In this document: positions 38,309 through 50,324 of the stretch, one piece after another
How the letters are laid out: every line of letters begins with the position of its first letter
Position numbering within the stretch: the stretch's first letter is position 1
From: Syntrophobacterales bacterium
Lineage (GTDB): Bacteria > Desulfobacterota > Syntrophobacteria > Syntrophobacterales > Thermodesulforhabdaceae
DNA: 50,324 nucleotides
Direction: 5' to 3'
Assembly: GCA_026992355.1 (NCBI GenBank)
Contig: JALXAE010000201.1
Span: forward strand, 1 to 50,324
Notes under the pieces: model-generated
What the model was told of the DNA's origin: nothing
The model's database searches: none
Seen by the model: only the letters and a program-made list of their open reading frames with translations
Program-made: the position numbers and the translations under genes

Positions 38309-38695
38309 TTAATCTTTTGGTAAAATTTTTTCTATTTTTTCTGCAAGTGTTTGTGCAGTAAAAGGTTTCACTATGTAATTACTCACCTTTGCTTTAACTG
38401 CCTCTATTACATTTTCCTTCTGGGCTTCCGCAGTAACCATCAAAAAGGGTAAATCCTTTGTTTCTTCATTTGACCTTACCCACTTTAATAATTCTAATCC
38501 CGTCATTTTGGGCATATTCCAATCGGAGATTATCAAATCAACTTTTTGAGTTTTCAAAATATCCACTGCAGCTGTTCCATCTTCAGCTTCCAGAATCTTT
38601 TTAAACTCAAGGTCTCGTAAAATATTCCTAATTATTCGCCTCATAGTAGCAAAATCATCTACTATCAGAACGGTCATATCCTTATAAGACGGCAT
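38309..38695 (-). CDS. cheY: CheY-type response regulator
   Basis: VLIVDDFATMRRIIRNILRDLEF...DLIISDWNMPKMTGLELLKWVR...PFLMVTAEAQ...YIVKPFT. Confidence 0.95.
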   Translation of the reverse strand: MPSYKDMTVLIVDDFATMRRIIRNILRDLEFKKILEAEDGTAAVDILKTQKVDLIISDWNMPKMTGLELLKWVRSNEETKDLPFLMVTAEAQKENVIEAVKAKVSNYIVKPFTAQTLAEKIEKILPKD

Positions 38696-38716
38696 AGTTT
38701 CCCCCTTCCCACAAAT

Positions 38717-39799
<1,083 letters not shown>

Positions 39800-40309
39800 C
39801 TATCTGTCCCCTTCATACGGATACCAGTCTTCCTTCCTAATCTTATCCACGTGCATTATTGCCACTTCATTTGTATAAGTATTAAAAATTATTTTTCTAC
39901 CCTTACGACCTCCAGTATCCTCAGCCGTTATTTTCACACCATGTCTAACCAGCAACCTACGAGCTATAAAAACATTCTCACGAGCTACACTGGCTGATTC
40001 CTTTGAAGATTCCTCAGGGACAGCGCCACCAAAAATCTGAGCCTCCAAGTTTTTTATCTCACTTCCATCATCACGAAAAAACTTAATCAGTGCGTAAACG
40101 GCAGCATTTCCAAAAAGCGGGGTTGATTCTTCCCGTTTAGAAGCCCTGGGGTATAAAAAATGATTCATTCCCCCCTTCTTCCGTTTCCTATCCCACAAAC
40201 AAACCGAAACACCCGTTCCAAGAACTGTTGCAATAAGAGTTGGTATTTTGGGAATATATATATACCCTTTGCGCAAAAAATACTCATTAGGCCTAATAGC
40301 TCTGCCCAT
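39800..40309 (-). CDS. cheD: CheD family protein lacking the catalytic Cys (probable pseudo-deamidase)
   Basis: LIATVLGTGVSVCLWDRKRKKGGMNHFLYP...NLEAQIFGGA...NVFIARRLLVRHGVKITAEDTGGRKGRKIIFNTYTNEV. Confidence 0.9.
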   Translation of the reverse strand: MGRAIRPNEYFLRKGYIYIPKIPTLIATVLGTGVSVCLWDRKRKKGGMNHFLYPRASKREESTPLFGNAAVYALIKFFRDDGSEIKNLEAQIFGGAVPEESSKESASVARENVFIARRLLVRHGVKITAEDTGGRKGRKIIFNTYTNEVAIMHVDKIRKEDWYPYEGDR

Positions 40310-40333
40310 TGAAAAATCCCAACTACAAAATAA

Positions 40334-40771
40334 TTATGAAGCTCTTTCGCATACTGTTAATGTACCAACCCTAGAGCCAAATACAAAAAGAGGGGTTTCT
40401 GAACAGGTGTAATCACCATCAGGCGGTTCAGGTTCTCCATACACCGGAAGCTTAAGAACAAACTTTATACCAGATCTAGCTATGACGCTTCCCGCCAGCA
40501 TATTCGCAAGTTCCTTCATACAGTCTTCCACATCGCTTTCCTCTACCTCTTCAGGAATTAACCCCAAAAAGTCTGCGGTTACTTGCTTGGCAAATTCAAC
40601 ATCAAACTTGACCATCAGCATCAACCTAACATCTGGAGATTCCAGCTCAATGTGAGAGGTTGCAAGATTGTCTGTGAGGTTATCTTCATCGCCCACAAAC
40701 TCTACTACATTGAAAAACATCGTTTCCATAACCTCAGAAATCGCATCCTTCGTCAATTCCACCCAGCTCAT
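40334..40771 (-). CDS. CheX/CheC-like CheY-P phosphatase
   Basis: D-x3-E-x2-N motif DCMKELAN followed by a Pro-containing strand; small CheX-sized protein in a che operon. Confidence 0.72.
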   Translation of the reverse strand: MSWVELTKDAISEVMETMFFNVVEFVGDEDNLTDNLATSHIELESPDVRLMLMVKFDVEFAKQVTADFLGLIPEEVEESDVEDCMKELANMLAGSVIARSGIKFVLKLPVYGEPEPPDGDYTCSETPLFVFGSRVGTLTVCERAS

Positions 40772-41153
40772 AATCCGGCTCTCCCATAATACCAGTAAGG
40801 TACTCCCTGATTTGTTCTGGTTGAAAGGGTTTTCTTATGTATCCCTGAGCCCCCATAGCCATAGCTTTGTTCAATCTTTCTTCATTTGATTCTGTGGTTA
40901 TAAGCACAACAGGAATGTCTTTGAACATTTCATTTTTTCTGAGATTTTTTATAAACTCTATTCCATCCATAACCGGCATATGTATATCGCTCAAAATCAA
41001 ATCAACCCATTCAGACTCCAAAATTTCCAGAGCTTCTTTGCCATTGGAGGCTTCATAAATTTTTCCTATGTCAAAACCAGACAACTTCAGTGTTTTTATA
41101 ATGACCCTTCTCATAGACCTAGAGTCGTCCACAACCAATACATTGTATGCCAT
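40734..41153 (-). CDS. CheY-like single-domain response regulator
   Basis: VLVVDDSRSMRRVIIKTLKLSGF...DLILSDIHMPVMDGIEFIKNLR...PVVLITTES...GYIRKPFQP. Confidence 0.92.
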   Translation of the reverse strand: MAYNVLVVDDSRSMRRVIIKTLKLSGFDIGKIYEASNGKEALEILESEWVDLILSDIHMPVMDGIEFIKNLRKNEMFKDIPVVLITTESNEERLNKAMAMGAQGYIRKPFQPEQIREYLTGIMGEPDYELGGIDEGCDF

Positions 41154-41182
41154 GGCTTATCCACCAGCTTGTTTAATAAGTT

Positions 41183-41665
41183 TTAAAATTCAAATTCGCC
41201 CTCTCCTGCAACCTTCAAAAAAAATTTTCCCGAACTTATCTCAAGCCTTAAAGTCCTATTAACCTTACCACCTACATGCTCCGCAGCTATCCTGACATTA
41301 TTCCGCCAAAAAAGTTTTTTCAGCACCATATAGTTTCGCTTGCCTATATTAAAAATTCCGTTCTCATCCAATATGTTCGCTCCTCCAGCTACCTTCACAA
41401 TTAGATTTTGCTTTTTGGCTCCAAGGCTGTAGCATGTTTTGAACAACAAGGGGATACCGGTGTCGCCAAACATGGCTGGATTTTTCTTCGCTTTGGTAGG
41501 ATCAATCTTGGATTCAGGCAACATGTAATGTAACATTCCACCAACTCTAGCCTTGGGATCATAGATAGCTACACCAATACATGACCCAAGAGAATAAGTC
41601 ACGATAACATCGTCCTGCTTGTCGCTCACTGCCATATCACCAACGCCAACGACTATACGTCCCAT
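41183..41665 (-). CDS. cheD: CheD chemoreceptor glutamine deamidase (intact catalytic motif)
   Basis: VTYSLGSCIGVAIYDPKARVGGMLHYMLP...VAGGANIL...NVRIAAEHVGGKVNRTLRLEISSG. Confidence 0.94.
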   Translation of the reverse strand: MGRIVVGVGDMAVSDKQDDVIVTYSLGSCIGVAIYDPKARVGGMLHYMLPESKIDPTKAKKNPAMFGDTGIPLLFKTCYSLGAKKQNLIVKVAGGANILDENGIFNIGKRNYMVLKKLFWRNNVRIAAEHVGGKVNRTLRLEISSGKFFLKVAGEGEFEF

Positions 41666-41694
41666 TAGACTCCGAAGCTCCCCGCAATTTTGTC

Positions 41695-42552
41695 TTATGG
41701 CTTCTGATAAATAGCTGGCATAACATATTTTAATCCATGATTTAGCCCGGCAAGACTCTCCGAATGACCAACAAAGAAATATCCACCAGGGGCTAAATAT
41801 GATGTCATACGTCGGATTAACTCACCTTGAGTAGGCTTGTCAAAATATATCATGACATTTCTGCAAAAAATTACCTCAAAGGGTCCCTTAAAGGGATATC
41901 TATCCTTTAAATTAAGACGCCTAAATGTAACAACCTTTTTTAATTCCTCAGAAACCTGATAAACTTTTTCTCCGTTTTGTACAATCTTGATAAAAAACCT
42001 GTTTTTCATTGCAGGTGGAACTTTCTTCACTCTATCTTCTGAATATATCCCTTTAATAGCGGTTTGCAAAACCCTGGTGGATATATCGGTGGCAAGTATT
42101 TTAAAGTCCCATTTTACCTTTTGCGTGTTTTTTTCAAAAAACGTTAAAACACACATGGCAATACTATAAGGCTCCTCGCCCGTTGAACAACCAGCACTCC
42201 ACATCCGAATCCGTCTATCTCCATCTTTAAGCTTTTTGCTTGTTATTTCCGGTAAAGCAACCTTCTCTAAGAAGTCAAAATGTTGATACTCTCGAAAAAA
42301 ATAAGTCAGGTTAGTTGATATAACATCTAAAAAATGGATAAATTCACCAAAGTTACTGGGGTTGGTAAGATACTTATAATACTCCTCGTAGGACTTTATT
42401 CCCGTAGCCCGTAAACGTTTATTAAGCCTGGCCTGAAGAAGAGATTTTTTCCCCTCATGTAAGTATATGCCAGCAGTGTCATAAACAAGTTTACTAAACT
42501 TCTGGAATAATTCGTCGCTTAACTGAGCAGAGTTCAATCTACTTATCCCCAT
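41695..42552 (-). CDS. cheR: Chemotaxis methyltransferase CheR
   Basis: NLTYFFREYQHFDFLE...IRMWSAGCSTGEEPYSIAM...PFEVIFCRNVMIYFDKPTQGEL...GGYFFVGHSESL. Confidence 0.96.
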   Translation of the reverse strand: MGISRLNSAQLSDELFQKFSKLVYDTAGIYLHEGKKSLLQARLNKRLRATGIKSYEEYYKYLTNPSNFGEFIHFLDVISTNLTYFFREYQHFDFLEKVALPEITSKKLKDGDRRIRMWSAGCSTGEEPYSIAMCVLTFFEKNTQKVKWDFKILATDISTRVLQTAIKGIYSEDRVKKVPPAMKNRFFIKIVQNGEKVYQVSEELKKVVTFRRLNLKDRYPFKGPFEVIFCRNVMIYFDKPTQGELIRRMTSYLAPGGYFFVGHSESLAGLNHGLKYVMPAIYQKP

Positions 42553-42774: not shown

Positions 42775-44316
42775 GTGATTTTATCAGCCAAACGCATCCT
42801 GCAATTTTGTGTATTTTTCACTGGCCTAGCCGGTATCGTCACAGAATACACTCTTTCAACTATTGCTTCATACCTTCTAGGAGACACTATATTCCAGTGG
42901 GCCTTAACAATAAGCTTCTTTCTTTTCGCAATGGGTTTGGGCAGCAGGTGGACAAGATATGTAAAAATACATGAGACAACATGGTTCGTAATTGTCGAAT
43001 CCTGCTTGTCTTTAGCAATAGTTCTGTGTGTCCCAGTAGTTTACGGAATGGCCTCCTGGCCCGATAGACTACCCTGGTTCTTGTACAGCTGGACAATTCT
43101 CATCGGAGTCTTAATCGGAATGGAAATTCCCCTTGTTATACGTATAAACAGCCAATACGAAGAACTATCTTTAAACCTAAGTAACATACTCGAGAAAGAT
43201 TACCTTGGAGCATTACTTGGTGGACTCTTCTTTGCTTTTATTGGGCTACCATTCTTGGGGATGGCCAGACTTCCCTTTGTTTTGGGAGTTATCAATCTCG
43301 CTGTGGCGGGAATTTTCACTTACCATTTCAAAGATCACATAAACAAAAAGGGAGTTGCTGTTCTTGTAATCGCCTTTTTTACTTTACCAACGATATTTCC
43401 CCTGCTTAAGCCTATCCAGCTATGGAGCGAACAAAAACTCTACAAGGACAAAATCATATATTTCGAACAATCTCAATACCAAAAGATCGTAATGACCCAG
43501 TGGCATGAGTATTTTTGGCTATATCTCGATGGTCATGAACAGTTCTCCAGCTACGATGAATACAGGTATCATGAATCACTGGTTCACCCTGCCATGCTAG
43601 CAACCCCATCCAGGGAAAACATACTTATCTTAGGCGGGGGTGATGGATTAGCAGCAAGAGAAGTATTGAAATACCCAGATGTTAAAACCATAACCCTAGT
43701 TGACATAGACCCCGCTGTGACCAGACTGGCAAAGGAATACCCGCTTTTGGTTTCCCTAAATGAAGCATCTCTGAAAAATCCAAAGGTCAAAATTATAAAC
43801 GACGATGCTGCCCATTTCCTGAAGACCACAAAAAACAGCGAAATTCCGCTTCTCTGGAATGTAATAATTGTGGATCTACCCGATCCAAGGAATCCGTCGC
43901 TAGAACGCTTGTATTCCGCTGAATTTTACCATTCATGCAAAAGCAGGCTCGCAAGAGGTGGCATTATTGTAACTCAAGCGACGAGCCCAATCTTTTGCAA
44001 AGAAGCCTTTTGGTGTATCGTCAAAACAATAGCAAGTGTCGGCCTAAATACACTACCATATCACGCCTATGTTCCTACCTTTGGAGAATGGGGTTGGGTA
44101 ATGGCTTCCGAACTTCCTAAAAAGGAAATAAAACAAAGAATCATAAATTCTCGAACTTTTGATAAGTTGCACCTTAGATTTCTTACAAAGGACATTCTCG
44201 CAAAACTTTTTGTCTTCAGTCCCGCTGATGTACTAGACCCCAATGAATTGGAAATACATTCCGATTTTCATCCCGTACTGTTTAAATACTATCAAAGCGG
44301 AGCATGGTTATTTTAG
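42775..44316 (+). CDS. Spermidine-synthase-like protein with N-terminal multi-TM domain (GTG start)
   Basis: About 7 N-terminal TM segments; C-terminal ILILGGGDGLAAREVLKYPDVKTITLVDIDP...NVIIVDLPDPRNPSLERLYSAEFY. Confidence 0.87.
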   Translation: MILSAKRILQFCVFFTGLAGIVTEYTLSTIASYLLGDTIFQWALTISFFLFAMGLGSRWTRYVKIHETTWFVIVESCLSLAIVLCVPVVYGMASWPDRLPWFLYSWTILIGVLIGMEIPLVIRINSQYEELSLNLSNILEKDYLGALLGGLFFAFIGLPFLGMARLPFVLGVINLAVAGIFTYHFKDHINKKGVAVLVIAFFTLPTIFPLLKPIQLWSEQKLYKDKIIYFEQSQYQKIVMTQWHEYFWLYLDGHEQFSSYDEYRYHESLVHPAMLATPSRENILILGGGDGLAAREVLKYPDVKTITLVDIDPAVTRLAKEYPLLVSLNEASLKNPKVKIINDDAAHFLKTTKNSEIPLLWNVIIVDLPDPRNPSLERLYSAEFYHSCKSRLARGGIIVTQATSPIFCKEAFWCIVKTIASVGLNTLPYHAYVPTFGEWGWVMASELPKKEIKQRIINSRTFDKLHLRFLTKDILAKLFVFSPADVLDPNELEIHSDFHPVLFKYYQSGAWLF

Positions 44317-44331
44317 CGGGTCATCCTAAAA

Positions 44332-45222
44332 TTATCTCAAAACCAGCACAGAAGCCCTGCAGGAACTTATGAAATGCTCAATCGAATCCTTATGAAACAA
44401 TTTCTCAAGCAAGGACTTCTTTCCCATCCACATGGCAAGCAATCCATGTTGAACCTTATTTCTTATAAATTGTTCAAATTCTTCAATTTCTGTGAATTGA
44501 CTATCCACATCAAGCCCTTTTTTCTTGTAATATTCAAGAACTTCGTCAAACCAGGGATAGACCTCAGCTTTAATGCCTCCACCCTTTGTTAATGCCACCA
44601 GGTTAACCTTTGCTCCGTGCAGTACTGCCATCTGATTAACCATCTCCAAAGAGTCTTGAGTAATATGGCTTTCATCCAAACAGGCATAAATCTGCTCTAT
44701 CCGTTCAGCTTCCTTTACTAAGAGAACTGAACAAGGTGCTGCCTGAACAAGCTTCTGCGGAAAGGTAGGGTTATCCTTCCACAAACATTCTTCACCCCTG
44801 GTGCAGCCCAGAACAACCAAACTTACTCCTTCTTCCTCAACAGCTGCCAACGTCTCGTTTACCGGCTGTCCAAAACGCAATCTGACCTTTAAATCCTTGA
44901 TACTACCCCGACAGACCATCATCTGCTCACACAAACCATCTTTAACGGAGAACCATTCATATTGACATTTTGTAGGTGAATATGGCGACTCATTAGGCTC
45001 CCAATGAGCCAAAAAGGTTTCTCTATATTTTTCAAGAGCGTTGATAATGGGATGGTCTAACAGAAGATCACACGGTTTCCCCGGCTTAACAGAACTGGCC
45101 ATATCTCTTGGTAAAATACCTAAAATAGTCACATCAGAAAACGTATTCCTAGCCAATAAACTAACTGTTTCTAAAGCAAAGGCACTGTATTCATGTTGGT
45201 CAGCTACAAACATGATTCTCAT
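44332..45222 (-). CDS. Universal stress protein family protein
   Basis: RIMFVADQHEYSAFALETVSLLAR...LVVLGCTRGEE...APCSVLLVKEAE; apparently two Usp-like halves. Confidence 0.82.
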   Translation of the reverse strand: MRIMFVADQHEYSAFALETVSLLARNTFSDVTILGILPRDMASSVKPGKPCDLLLDHPIINALEKYRETFLAHWEPNESPYSPTKCQYEWFSVKDGLCEQMMVCRGSIKDLKVRLRFGQPVNETLAAVEEEGVSLVVLGCTRGEECLWKDNPTFPQKLVQAAPCSVLLVKEAERIEQIYACLDESHITQDSLEMVNQMAVLHGAKVNLVALTKGGGIKAEVYPWFDEVLEYYKKKGLDVDSQFTEIEEFEQFIRNKVQHGLLAMWMGKKSLLEKLFHKDSIEHFISSCRASVLVLR

Positions 45223-45246
45223 AGTATTCCCCCTAAATTGAGGTTT

Positions 45247-46008
45247 TTATTCTCGCCAGTAGAAAAGTATGGGCGCATCTATTTTACCCAAAACACCAGT
45301 AATTTTCGCTAGATTATTTTCGTCTCTGGTAACTGCAGCGGCAATAAGCCCACTTTCCTCGGGTAAATCACCGGCTTTAGCATAATATTTTCTTTCAACC
45401 TTAAAACCCTTATCCTGAAGAGTTTTAGTAACCAGTAGCTGATCCAGAGCCCTATCTATCTCATCCAAAAAACACAAATTCATCTTAATGTTTTTTCTTT
45501 CAAAAATCTGATCTAAAAAACTCAAAAATGCATCATCAATACTATCACCTTCTAAAAGCAAAATAACTTCTTCAATCTTTAATAAATTCCTCACAAGAAT
45601 TATTGGAACCGGTGAATGCTTATACAGCTTCGAATCCAGCCTTTCTTCAATGATTTCAGGCTCCAAAGACACCGCACCCTCAATAAAAACATCATATTTT
45701 CCAGACTTTAACTGTTCCAAAATGACTTTTTCTTTATCACCCGTAGTCACAATGGGATTTATTGCAACCGGACAAAACCTGGATTCAGTAGCAACCAACT
45801 TACTTATCTCCTTTTCAAACTTTTCGATCATTTCCCGTTCCCAGGTGCGCCTCGCCCAACCTATCTCACTAAAAGCACCGGGAAGCTCAGGTTCCTTAGC
45901 ATAAATAGCCTGAATACTCATTTCGCAGAAATGGGCCAACTCACAGGCAAACCGCAGAGCTATACTTGCTTCAATATCAGGTGATACGGCTACGAGCGAT
46001 CTAATCAT
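45247..46008 (-). CDS. Universal stress protein family protein
   Basis: IRSLVAVSPDIEASIALRFACELAHFCEMSIQAIYA...YKHSPVPIILVRN. Confidence 0.78.
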   Translation of the reverse strand: MIRSLVAVSPDIEASIALRFACELAHFCEMSIQAIYAKEPELPGAFSEIGWARRTWEREMIEKFEKEISKLVATESRFCPVAINPIVTTGDKEKVILEQLKSGKYDVFIEGAVSLEPEIIEERLDSKLYKHSPVPIILVRNLLKIEEVILLLEGDSIDDAFLSFLDQIFERKNIKMNLCFLDEIDRALDQLLVTKTLQDKGFKVERKYYAKAGDLPEESGLIAAAVTRDENNLAKITGVLGKIDAPILFYWRE

Positions 46009-46042
46009 TTAACTTCACCTCCTTTAAAAATCAGTTCGTAGC

Positions 46043-46429
46043 TTACTCTTGCTTCAATTTTTTTTCCGCTTTTTTTACAACTTCGTGAATTTCGCTGAGC
46101 TTAAAAGGTTTAGCAATAAAATCGAAGACTCCCTTCTGATAGGACTGCTTGGCTGTTTCCATAGTAGCAAAACCAGTTATTACTATCACCTGAGTTGATG
46201 GTGATTTCTCTTTAACCTTGGTCAAGAAGGTCATTCCGTCTATACCTTCCATCTTCAGATCGGTAATCACTATGTCGAAATCTTTCTCTTTAACACGCTC
46301 CAAAGCATTTGAACTATCTGTAAAAGTTTCAACTTCATAGCCGTACTTTTCCAGATATGGTTTAAGTCTTTTACAAACGATAGGTTCATCATCTAATATC
46401 AAAATTGTAGTTTTTTCACCCGTTCTCAT
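46043..46429 (-). CDS. Single-domain response regulator (NtrC-type receiver)
   Basis: ILILDDEPIVCKRLKPYLEKYGYEVETF...DIVITDLKMEGIDGMTFL...VIVITGFATMETA...FDFIAKPFKL. Confidence 0.94.
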   Translation of the reverse strand: MRTGEKTTILILDDEPIVCKRLKPYLEKYGYEVETFTDSSNALERVKEKDFDIVITDLKMEGIDGMTFLTKVKEKSPSTQVIVITGFATMETAKQSYQKGVFDFIAKPFKLSEIHEVVKKAEKKLKQE

Positions 46430-49025
46430 AATTGCCTCCTTTACCGTTTAGGGAGTTCTTTTTCTCTAGCTTCTCGACGAATCGATTAGCAAAATATTCA
46501 ACCATGTCATCCGAATGCATCTGTGTATCGAGTTGTCTGGTGTAACCTATGAGAGCGCCCAATATCTTCATTCGCTCGCACATTTGGTCACGCCCTAGTT
46601 TTTTTATGCGGCCAACGACCAGATCTCCTCTAGTCTCTACTTTAAAATCAAAGTGTTCCAAAATCTCCGCAATACAAATAGCCCTTCTAGATCTTCTGAT
46701 TGTGTCCGTAACTCCACCCAGAAACCTGAAATAGGCATAATTATCATTAGGGTTATCAACTATATAAGAATCGACAATGTTAAAATGGTAACCCAACCGT
46801 AAGTTCATATTTAAATAATCCTTAGAAACTACGACTAGATTTCGACCTATTTGATCAGGTCCCGCCGCTGACGGAGAAAAAGTTCGAGTAATACTGGACA
46901 TCAAGCTTTTAAAATCCACCGTAACGGGCTCCGTATCCCACATCCCCGGCAATAACAAACCTTCCAACAGAGCCGCCAGCGGAACTGACGTTATTTGATC
47001 AGCCCTTACAACCTTTTCTGCAGCATCAACGGAGGTTCCATCTCCTATGTCAATCAGCATTATTCCAAGGGGAATTTCGATATCTAACCGTTTGGGCCTC
47101 GAACCCAGTTTATGAGGATAACTTTCACTAATTCTGATGATTTCTTCAACGGCTTTTTCGTGAACAAACCTTGTTATATCGTGATAAGTCATGCATCCTG
47201 CAGGAGTAAAATTACTGTCATGGGGATCTAACAAATTAAGGGGACTCAACTTTTTAAGAATGCGCTTTAAAAGCCTATACTCGTAAGACTCCTCAAAAAC
47301 CGTCTCCTCAGTTAGTTCATACAAACATAACTCCTTTATTTTGCCTTCAAAAATAATATTTTGAGTAGCGTCTAAGGTAATCTCCATGCCGTTTTTTAAA
47401 ACCTGAGTAGCAATACCCGTGTCAACTATTGTGGGAACTCTAAATTCCCTAGCAACTGTGGCCATGTGTCCCGTAGGAGACCCATAATCTGTAATTATGC
47501 CTCGCACCCTTTTTATAATCCTGGCTAATCTCGGGGATGTATATCTAGTCACAATTATTGCACCATGAGGAACCTCATCAAGATTTGTGTCGTCACCCAC
47601 CACAAACACCGAGCCTGTTGCAATTCCTCGCTGAACAACGGTACCCCTCTTGGACATTATAACAGTTGCCGTTTCCATAAGATGGGACAAATCACATTCA
47701 CTACGAAGTTCCAATCTTTGCACCGCAAGTGGACGTGCCTGAAGGATACAAATTTCTCCTTTTTTATCTATTGCCCATTCAATGTCCTGAGGCCTTTTAA
47801 AATACCGCTCAAGAAGCATTCCTGTATCTGCCAGCTGCTTTAATTGCTGAGAAGTCAAAGAGGGTTCATTCTGTTTGTCTTCTGAAACGCTAGTCCATAA
47901 CGTGCCACCCTCATCTAGCAAAGTAAGCTGCTTTTCCTTTTTAACAATTCTCATTGAAACAATCGGATGACCCGAACTTCTATCCACCTGGTATTCATCA
48001 ACCCTTGCAACACCCTCAACCACCGTTGGACCTAATCCCCAGGAAGCACTAACCAGCATGACTTCTTTTTCTGGTTCAGTTGGATGAAGCGTGTAAAGAA
48101 CACCACTGCACACCGGATCAATCATCAACTGGCACAAAACCCCTAAAACAGCCTCATGTTCATGGAACCCCTTGTTATATCTGTAACTCCAGGCATCACA
48201 TGAATACAAACTGGCAAGGACAACTCGGTACGCATCAAGCACACCAGATTTACCCACGTTGAGAACAGTTTTGTGAAGGCCAGCAAAGCTATGCTCAGAA
48301 TCTTCCAACCATGCACTGCTGCGCACTGCAAAGAAAGGGCGCTCTCGTTCACTTTTTTCAACAATCAAATTCAAAGTCTTTTCAATCTCGCCCAGCATTT
48401 TTCTTGGGAATTTACCCGCAAGAATTCGCTTTTGAATTTCTCGAGCCGAATCGAAGAAAAATTCCTCATCCAGACCATCCCAGTGAATCAGAACATGTTC
48501 TATAATTTCATAAATGTTATTTTGCTCCATAAAATCCTTGAATGCCTTCGTAGTAATCGCAAAACCGTCAGGTGTATTCAAATGTAGAATATTCTTAATC
48601 TCTCCCAAGTTTGCAGCCTTATTACCCACTTCATCCGATAAATCACGTGTAATTAAATCGAGAGGAATGGCATAGGGAGATTCCGGGATTGTTGGGCGAC
48701 CGGCCAATTCTTCCTGTATCTGTCTATGAATCCTTTCAAAAGCTTCGTAAAGCTCAAGATATTTGTGATCTCCAATAACATTTAAGTTATAAATCAGCTT
48801 ATAAACCTGATCACTTATTTCTTCGCAAGCAGACACTATATACTGCTTATCAAACACATATTCCCCACTCAGCTTATCTCCCATATCCGCCATCAGCTCT
48901 AAAATGCGATTATTCTGCGACAGAATTGCCCGGAAGGTATTAAACAGAACTACAAAAGAATACTCCTGCTTCTTACGGCGAAAACCAAAAATCTTCGAAA
49001 AAGCGTTTTTAAATGCTTCAAACAT
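46416..49025 (-). CDS. PEP-synthase-like dikinase: PEP/pyruvate-binding ATP-grasp plus phosphohistidine domain plus unknown C-terminal domain
   Basis: LSDEVGNKAANLGEI, FAVRSSAWLEDSEHSFAGLHKTVLNV, DIEWAIDKKGEICILQARPL, ITDYGSPTGHMATVAREFRVPTIV; overlaps the receiver gene by 14 nt. Confidence 0.88.
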   Translation of the reverse strand: MFEAFKNAFSKIFGFRRKKQEYSFVVLFNTFRAILSQNNRILELMADMGDKLSGEYVFDKQYIVSACEEISDQVYKLIYNLNVIGDHKYLELYEAFERIHRQIQEELAGRPTIPESPYAIPLDLITRDLSDEVGNKAANLGEIKNILHLNTPDGFAITTKAFKDFMEQNNIYEIIEHVLIHWDGLDEEFFFDSAREIQKRILAGKFPRKMLGEIEKTLNLIVEKSERERPFFAVRSSAWLEDSEHSFAGLHKTVLNVGKSGVLDAYRVVLASLYSCDAWSYRYNKGFHEHEAVLGVLCQLMIDPVCSGVLYTLHPTEPEKEVMLVSASWGLGPTVVEGVARVDEYQVDRSSGHPIVSMRIVKKEKQLTLLDEGGTLWTSVSEDKQNEPSLTSQQLKQLADTGMLLERYFKRPQDIEWAIDKKGEICILQARPLAVQRLELRSECDLSHLMETATVIMSKRGTVVQRGIATGSVFVVGDDTNLDEVPHGAIIVTRYTSPRLARIIKRVRGIITDYGSPTGHMATVAREFRVPTIVDTGIATQVLKNGMEITLDATQNIIFEGKIKELCLYELTEETVFEESYEYRLLKRILKKLSPLNLLDPHDSNFTPAGCMTYHDITRFVHEKAVEEIIRISESYPHKLGSRPKRLDIEIPLGIMLIDIGDGTSVDAAEKVVRADQITSVPLAALLEGLLLPGMWDTEPVTVDFKSLMSSITRTFSPSAAGPDQIGRNLVVVSKDYLNMNLRLGYHFNIVDSYIVDNPNDNYAYFRFLGGVTDTIRRSRRAICIAEILEHFDFKVETRGDLVVGRIKKLGRDQMCERMKILGALIGYTRQLDTQMHSDDMVEYFANRFVEKLEKKNSLNGKGGNYENG

Positions 49026-49088
49026 AGGGAGGCCTCACATCTCCCATTAGCCAAATTTGTATTGATGTTTCCTGAATAGCTGGGCCTC

Positions 49089-49838
49089 CTAATGAGCTCC
49101 ACCCTTGCCGCCAAATATAACGCCCATAGCCAAACCAGCCATGATAGCTATCAAAGTTGCTATAACGCCGTACCAACCACCATGATTGAAAGCCAGCGAA
49201 GAAAGAAAAGCGGGGAAGCCTACCAATTTAACAGGAACCACCTTTTCATTATGAGACATAACCTGTCCATTTTTCACAGTAAACACTTGAACCTTATATT
49301 CACCTGGGGTCAACCTTGCTGGAATATCAAGGTTTACGGAAAAGGCCTTTTTAGTGTCATCAATTTTGTCTACTTTTACTCGGCCCAGAAACTCTCCGTA
49401 AAGTTCTTCACTTTTCTTGAGTTTCAAAAATTCGCGGAACAGCTGTTTTTTATCGATCTTAGCCCTTGTTTCCACCTGAACCTCATTTGCGAGGCTTTCA
49501 AGGCCAAGAAGTTTCAAAGTATCTGCACTGGAAGCATAAACCAAAAAAGCGTTAGGAGTTTCCTTAAAGGTAACCGGATCGATATTCATCCAAAGCAATC
49601 CAAATATTTTGCCCTTCCTCTTTAAGTGCACATCATGAGATATGCCCTTAAATCGAACAACGATTTCCACATCGGATGGAACATATCCTGAGACCTTAAG
49701 AGTGGTGCCATGATAAAAGGCACCAATGTCAATCTTTTCAGGTTCAACTTTTATAACATCTGCGCGACAATCTACTCCATTCAGGATAGCCACAAAGATG
49801 CAAACAATGATTGCTAGAAAAATATTATCAACTCGCAT
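49089..49838 (-). CDS. TIGR02186-like membrane-anchored periplasmic protein
   Basis: Signal peptide, Ig-like periplasmic region, C-terminal TM YGVIATLIAIMAGLAMGVIFGGK; family assignment from remembered TSUP-adjacent context; ATG 49838 has a good SD (GGGAGGAC). Confidence 0.65.
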   Translation of the reverse strand: MRVDNIFLAIIVCIFVAILNGVDCRADVIKVEPEKIDIGAFYHGTTLKVSGYVPSDVEIVVRFKGISHDVHLKRKGKIFGLLWMNIDPVTFKETPNAFLVYASSADTLKLLGLESLANEVQVETRAKIDKKQLFREFLKLKKSEELYGEFLGRVKVDKIDDTKKAFSVNLDIPARLTPGEYKVQVFTVKNGQVMSHNEKVVPVKLVGFPAFLSSLAFNHGGWYGVIATLIAIMAGLAMGVIFGGKGGAH

Positions 49839-49839
49839 T

Positions 49840-50324
49840 TTAATGTCCTCCCGTATAAGCAAGCATTACTTTTGGTGTAAGCAGAAGACTCAAAAGCATT
49901 TTGACCATGACCAAAAGTACAAGAATGGCCAGGAAGATTTTCAATTGCTCACCTTTCAGTTTCTTGCTTATGCGAGCCCCAAATTGGGCACCAACGGTTG
50001 AACCCAGAAGCAAAAACAGGGCTAAAACAAAATCAACAGTATGGTTTGTATATGCCTGCATTATGGTAACATCGACACAGGTGAATAGGATCTGAAACAA
50101 ACTGGTACCGACAACAACGTGCATGGGCATGCGGAGAAGATAGACCATTACCGGCACCATGATAAATCCACCGCCAACTCCCATAATAGCGGCAAGAATC
50201 CCAACAAAAACGCCAAGACCAATCGGCAACAACACAGAATGACGAACGCCGGATCTCTCAAACTCCATCTGCCATGGGAGGCTCTGAACAAGTTTGCCAT
50301 ACCATGAAGTCCTGGCAGGTACCT
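49840..50324 (-). CDS. TSUP (TauE/SafE) family permease, C-terminal part (runs off the right edge)
   Basis: Open frame continues upstream of the track Met to the window edge (VPARTSWYGKLVQSLPWQMEFERSG); IGLGVFVGILAAIMGVGGGFIMVPVMVYLLRMPMHVVVGTSLFQI is TSUP-like. Confidence 0.88.
   Translation of the reverse strand, partial: VPARTSWYGKLVQSLPWQMEFERSGVRHSVLLPIGLGVFVGILAAIMGVGGGFIMVPVMVYLLRMPMHVVVGTSLFQILFTCVDVTIMQAYTNHTVDFVLALFLLLGSTVGAQFGARISKKLKGEQLKIFLAILVLLVMVKMLLSLLLTPKVMLAYTGGH

Follow-up and report, generated by a model that had tools for sequence, protein, structure and literature searches.

Among described systems, the closest to the one reported here is a poorly annotated nitrate cluster of Desulfovibrio (DVU0251-DVU0245 / Dde_0597-Dde_0605), which encodes a TauE permease, a hypothetical protein, a PtxB-like protein, a histidine kinase, a receiver, a dikinase, and a phosphatase (PMC4001038). 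Transposon insertions in the TauE, receiver, and dikinase genes gave nitrate resistance in both D. vulgaris and D. alaskensis, and in D. vulgaris, addition of 100 mM nitrate made no difference to the growth of isolated mutants of the permease, the hypothetical protein, the receiver, or the dikinase (PMC4001038). The authors proposed that the mutations block nitrate entry through a leaky thiosulfate transporter (PMC4001038), and a later paper repeated this reading (PMC9723548). Apart from this unexplained cluster, the open-licence papers searched contained no account of a module that combines receiver, dikinase, and TSUP permease. Here, we describe such a module in a Syntrophobacterales bacterium (assembly GCA_026992355.1), in which a TSUP permease, a PF09608 protein, a dikinase-like enzyme, a lone receiver, and two Usp-like proteins are encoded at one end of contig JALXAE010000201.1. 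The window analyzed is this entire contig (C201, 50,324 nucleotides), and the search set comprised 39 genomes of the order, plus named genome contigs.

Because the receiver and dikinase genes of the nitrate cluster both lie downstream of the permease gene, polarity alone fails to explain their mutants, which therefore argue that both proteins are needed for permease-dependent anion entry; an effect on transcription may also account for the nitrate-resistance mutants. The mutant data indicate anion transport, and the stress response proposed in the first-pass annotation, which was based on the Usp annotation alone, was not upheld. Like the window cluster, the nitrate cluster brings together a TauE-type permease, a lone receiver, and a dikinase of the phosphoenolpyruvate (PEP)/pyruvate-binding type with a swivel domain. 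Unlike the visible part of the window cluster, it holds a histidine kinase, as well as a phosphonate-binding-like protein and a DSP-type phosphatase, and its receiver lies upstream of the dikinase. Genes for TauE, a phosphonate-binding protein, a histidine kinase, a receiver, a dikinase, and a phosphatase were also found at a locus (L217) whose genome belongs to the order that includes the Solidesulfovibrio locus L094, and the dikinase of L217 is identical to that of the window at 26 of the 26 key positions checked. The family link between the window module and the nitrate cluster is good, with DVU0246 as the probable family member by its annotation (PMC4001038) and by synteny with L217.

The tight cluster of the window extends over 44332-50322 and consists of the following six genes, listed from upstream to downstream:

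49840..50322, minus strand: TSUP/TauE-SafE permease (PF01925, 98.7 bits), C-terminal 160 aa only, cut by the contig end
49089..49838, minus strand: Alph_Pro_TM/TIGR02186-like membrane-anchored protein (PF09608, 141.6 bits), presumed transporter partner
46416..49025, minus strand: dikinase-like protein of 869 aa (PF01326 and PF00391)
46043..46429, minus strand: lone receiver of 128 aa (PF00072, 111.7 bits)
45247..46008, minus strand: Usp-like protein, weak match (PF00582, 19.7 bits, under the cut-off of 24)
44332..45222, minus strand: Usp-domain protein of 296 aa, final gene of the cluster (PF00582, 34.3 bits, above the cut-off)

All six minus-strand genes reported in the first-pass annotation were present in close succession, and the 14-nt overlap between the dikinase and receiver genes was exact (ATGAGAACGGGTGA). 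The receiver ATG is preceded by its own Shine-Dalgarno sequence (AGGAGG). The ATG of the PF09608 gene begins 1 nt past the permease stop, correcting an earlier figure of 2 nt, and the other gaps are indeed short, at 63, 34, and 24 nt. No minus-strand terminator-like sites were found between the cluster genes, and the counts of such sites were similar to those in shuffled sequence. The window is the entire contig, so the upstream part of the cluster lies off the contig end, whereas the module ends at 44332, since a plus-strand spermidine-synthase-like gene and a chemotaxis-type cluster adjoin it there. Relatives of the truncated permease are about 310 aa at full length, with complete copies in L033, L034, and L114, and its second half is approximately 82% identical between loci. 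The PF09608 protein is well above the cut-off of its Pfam model and reaches 55 against a cut-off of 255 with the NCBIfam model TIGR02186.

Gene linkage of the module is close to certain. Dikinase matches above 740 bits were taken as orthologous loci, and those of 400-740 bits as relatives. Orthologues of the dikinase, at 45-72% identity, come from Desulfobacterota, Solidesulfovibrio among them, and both Desulfobacterota and Nitrospirota yielded many relatives at about 32-41% identity; the relatives of 400-740 bits show about 32-47%. At every orthologous locus, the dikinase gene is immediately followed by that of the lone receiver. Among the orthologous loci with enough flanking sequence, TSUP and PF09608 genes were each found within 5 kb at 23 of 23, accompanied by Usp genes at 21, NtrC-type regulators at 20, and histidine kinases at 19, a count that has one genome twice (L033 = L113); both Usp-like genes are retained in many orthologous loci. 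Of the 39 genomes from the order, 18 encode PF09608; they are exactly the carriers of the dikinase orthologue (among them G037, at 41% identity, and G023, at 47%), and PF09608 always adjoins the dikinase. The chance of such an exact match is about 1 in 6 x 10^10 if kinship is ignored; kinship raises the true figure, yet the loci span several families. Among the 43 relatives, a receiver was found within 5 kb at 38, a histidine kinase at 34, and a TSUP gene at 21, where an estimated 2-3% would be expected near any gene from about seven TSUP genes per genome. Conservation in different families and phyla places this arrangement far beyond what chance would give.

A lone receiver lies at most 600 bp away in 25 of the 43 relatives, and it may be located downstream of the dikinase, upstream together with the histidine kinase, or convergent; the linkage has therefore outlasted rearrangement. 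Units of histidine kinase, receiver, and dikinase recur in distant branches, some fused to or beside a DSP-type phosphatase and often near TSUP permeases. Lack of receiver-dikinase co-conservation had been named beforehand as an outcome that would speak against a joint role, and the two were co-conserved in all checkable orthologous loci. Together with the recurrent units in distant relatives and the same Desulfovibrio mutant phenotype (PMC4001038), this bears out the earlier suggestion that receiver and dikinase belong together. These data also bear on an explanation that we regard as quite improbable, namely that the transporter, Usp, and dikinase genes are co-regulated by the same histidine kinase/NtrC pair and mechanistically separate, with the dikinase in a housekeeping or energy-metabolism role. 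NtrC-type regulators adjoin most orthologous loci, and the Usp and PF09608 genes vary between subtypes, as this explanation would predict, but the strict gene order in orthologues, the exact co-occurrence of PF09608, the recurrence in several arrangements, and the common mutant phenotypes (PMC4001038) argue against it.

The dikinase-like enzyme has only two Pfam domains, PPDK_N (residues 131-437, 273.9 bits) and PEP-utilizers (residues 486-555, 70.4 bits), and it was modeled by AlphaFold2 with a pLDDT (predicted local distance difference test) score of 85. Its regions are as follows:

48672..49025, minus strand: N-terminal helical domain (about residues 1-118, AlphaFold2 secondary structure), without a family match and without an invariant histidine in the alignment
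47715..48635, minus strand: ATP-grasp domain (PF01326), with the catalytic-type residues K136, R235, E406, D414, E416, Q429, and R431 all present
47361..47570, minus strand: phosphohistidine swivel domain (PF00391), with the H520 codon at 47466-47468
46416..47324, minus strand: C-terminal domain of about 300 aa with a conserved motif, presumed acceptor domain

The ATP-grasp residues checked are conserved throughout the homologues, and H520 is invariant in the aligned ones; with the catalytic residues in place, the enzyme may turn ATP over to AMP via a phosphohistidine. The motif of the C-terminal domain comprises C611-x3-HD-x2-R-x2-HE, G663, H747, N762, F768-x-GG, R781, and D833, with C611, H615, D616, R619, H622, E623, G663, H747, N762, F768, G770, G771, R781, and D833 invariant or nearly so. 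This domain had no Pfam match and no PDB sequence match, and its model (mean pLDDT 82), a predicted mixed alpha/beta fold, gave no Foldseek match in the PDB at E<0.001; the top match (E=0.012) is too weak for a fold assignment.

The enzyme resembles PpsA in its ATP-grasp and phosphohistidine domains (residues 121-565 match) but lacks the PEP/pyruvate-binding TIM barrel, as judged from Pfam and the predicted fold. PEP synthase identity was ruled out by the missing barrel and by equivalog scores far under the cut-offs (TIGR01418, 315 against 739.75 bits; PRK06464, 328 against 598), and the score with RIF_Ptrans_rph was 222 against 999 bits. Rifampin phosphotransferase and the small-molecule dikinases HpeHI/PpsAB likewise combine ATP-grasp and swivel chemistry with an acceptor domain that is not a barrel. 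In contrast, those proteins have another domain order, no detectable similarity in the acceptor domain (rifampin phosphotransferase was absent from the top PDB matches of the C-terminal model), and are metabolic or resistance enzymes for which no receiver partner has been described.

By fold, the solved structures closest to the enzyme are PEP synthase, rifampin phosphotransferase, and HpeI, in keeping with the alternative that the enzyme phosphorylates an imported compound or its product as a first catabolic step, as rifampin phosphotransferase or HpeHI would, and that the receiver merely tunes the histidine kinase/NtrC pair as a phosphate sink or specificity partner, with clustering due to joint induction. 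HpeHI and PpsAB do act on small molecules by the same chemistry (PMC12167813), and the lone receiver and the NtrC receivers have the VCKRL core of helix 1 in common. We nevertheless consider this alternative unlikely. Dikinase mutants are no longer sensitive to nitrate (PMC4001038), although nitrate is an implausible acceptor of phosphate; no catabolic genes were recognized as travelling with the module; and dikinase-receiver adjacency is kept at loci where no NtrC gene was found nearby. Helix-1 similarity between the receiver and NtrC was no higher within a locus (0.48) than between loci (0.476), which does not favour the tuning role and made helix-1 co-variation uninformative as a sign of shared kinase specificity.

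Tandem dikinases give a further view of the enzyme. Triple clusters with the order dikinase-receiver-dikinase-dikinase occur in L116, L117, L118, L094, L199, L200, and L206, and in these seven the middle dikinase is without most of the ATP-site residues but retains H520 and the C-terminal motif. We read this as evidence that H520 and the C-terminal domain probably form the core function, and that the middle enzymes may receive their phosphate from a partner, in the way that HpeI charges HpeH (PMC12167813).

Direct transfer of phosphate from the dikinase phosphohistidine to the receiver aspartate was suggested in the first-pass annotation and found no specific support; it would form a relay that is driven by ATP and either bypasses the histidine kinase or drains it. 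The gene overlap, the co-conservation, the retained phosphorylation residues of the receiver, and the swivelling histidine of the dikinase would all suit such a relay. On the other hand, the C-terminal domain carries an invariant motif of its own, in line with a different acceptor, sigma-54-linked loci have a dikinase with the same catalytic residues and no adjacent receiver, and histidine kinases able to serve the receiver are usually nearby. The N-terminal helical domain also does not look like a histidine phosphotransfer (HPt) domain, an assignment ruled out by its lack of an invariant histidine. We regard direct transfer as very improbable.

The lone receiver retains all phosphorylation-site residues (DD, the D in VITDLKM, the T in VITGFA, and the K in AKPF). 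It is under strong constraint, because its mean identity between loci is 72%, where the NtrC receivers reach 57% and the dikinase 52%. Like single-domain response regulators, it stands alone with conserved phosphorylation residues; unlike them, it is genetically tied to a dikinase and not to proteins of chemotaxis or of a phosphorelay. The earlier statement that no kinase or output domain lies next to the receiver holds for this assembly, where no histidine kinase was found in the visible part of the cluster, but not for most relatives, which have a HAMP-HisKA-HATPase kinase next to the module along with a sigma-54 regulator of the NtrC type. Host orthologues of the linked kinase (75% identical) and NtrC regulator (70% identical), relative to L033, are encoded together on contig C283, apart from the remainder of the module, and we infer that this pair phosphorylates the lone receiver. 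At this locus (L142, G000:C283), the pair lies near genes for an aldehyde dehydrogenase, a methyl-accepting chemotaxis protein, and a small ferredoxin/sulfite-reductase-like protein.

Taken together, the conserved operon in sulfur-respiring bacteria and their relatives suggests an undescribed form of transport switching by phosphate transfer. In the model that we propose, the operon would serve a regulated anion transporter. The membrane histidine kinase, encoded on contig C283 in the host, would sense an extracellular or envelope signal and phosphorylate both the receiver of the NtrC-type sigma-54 activator, thereby controlling transcription, and the lone receiver. The phosphorylated lone receiver would then bind and switch the dikinase-like enzyme, which would move phosphate from ATP to H520 and on to an acceptor held by the C-terminal domain, and phosphorylation of this acceptor would turn the TSUP/Alph_Pro_TM transporter on or off. 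The Usp proteins might bind nucleotide and add control by energy state. By analogy, thiosulfate, sulfite, and a sulfonate are candidates for the transported anion, and the presence of dsrA in the host genome is consistent with sulfur-oxyanion respiration. Two-component signalling coupled to a dikinase that controls a TSUP transporter, taken as a whole chain, falls in our judgment just short of an even chance. Put forward tentatively, as a possible mechanism, is a two-component system with an ATP-dependent dikinase as its output: the lone receiver, once phosphorylated, would switch a phosphohistidine enzyme that carries a novel acceptor domain, and the resulting phosphorylation, undone in some relatives by the DSP-type phosphatase, would gate the transporter.

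Several observations weigh against this model. In Desulfovibrio, phosphatase mutants behaved in opposite ways in the two species, DVU0250 differed between pooled and isolated mutants, and for both the phosphatase and the hypothetical protein the fitness values conflict between species or assays (PMC4001038). The nitrate cluster is a divergent relative without Usp and without an annotated PF09608 protein, and its dikinase is no more than a remote homologue. For about half of the distant relatives, no TSUP gene lies within 5 kb, and some have a sigma-54 activator and no receiver. In a comparison of distances, the partial correlation of the lone receiver was 0.62 with the NtrC receivers against 0.37 with the dikinase; as a partner test, this correlation did not point specifically to the dikinase.

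The dikinases form a large family, present in 107 of the 297 genomes sampled from the phylum with up to eight copies per genome, and the family is similar enough to PEP synthase to be misread as such, though without the PEP-binding barrel. If the model is true, a class of signalling enzymes has been taken for central metabolism, and the long-unexplained nitrate-resistance genes of Desulfovibrio would gain a mechanism. Post-translational control of transport would then be spread across Desulfobacterota and Nitrospirota. This would bear on the uptake or exclusion of oxyanions by sulfate reducers; such oxyanions, nitrate among them, serve in industry to counter souring.

Additional features were observed at and around these loci. 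Between the module and the chemotaxis genes of the window, a 513-aa membrane polyamine aminopropyltransferase-like gene (PRK03612, above the cut-off) occupies 42775-44316 on the plus strand, followed at 38309-42552 on the minus strand by a series of chemotaxis-type genes encoding CheY-like receivers, CheD-like, and CheR proteins. The dikinase, PF09608, and Usp proteins had no PADLOC match, and the receiver matches were weak and generic-looking, so that a role in anti-phage defence was set aside. A membrane protein (x237) beside larger TSUPs was not established as a divergent PF09608 protein, and its copy in L075 had no Pfam match. An apparent conserved in-frame stop in the dikinases of the order of L094 arose from a search that had read beyond the true stop; these open reading frames are complete.

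A DSP-type (PTP-SAK-like) phosphatase is fused to the dikinase or directly follows it at L143:2513-6292, L145:1480-5238, and L217:10021-11079, which fits reversible phosphorylation. The dikinases of L110, L146, and L147 are about 1050-1070 aa long, with a C-terminal extension that is weakly lectin/concanavalin-like, mostly below or barely at the cut-off. In many genomes of the order of L094 (L187-L198), a sigma-54 activator of about 900 aa without a receiver match precedes the dikinase, and TSUP354 is encoded on the opposite strand. Finally, a Nitrospirota locus with a histidine kinase, receiver, and dikinase (L043:3368-6200) encodes two MshEN-DUF202 proteins between the Usp and histidine kinase genes; MshEN is a cyclic di-GMP-binding domain, and a second-messenger link is possible at this locus.

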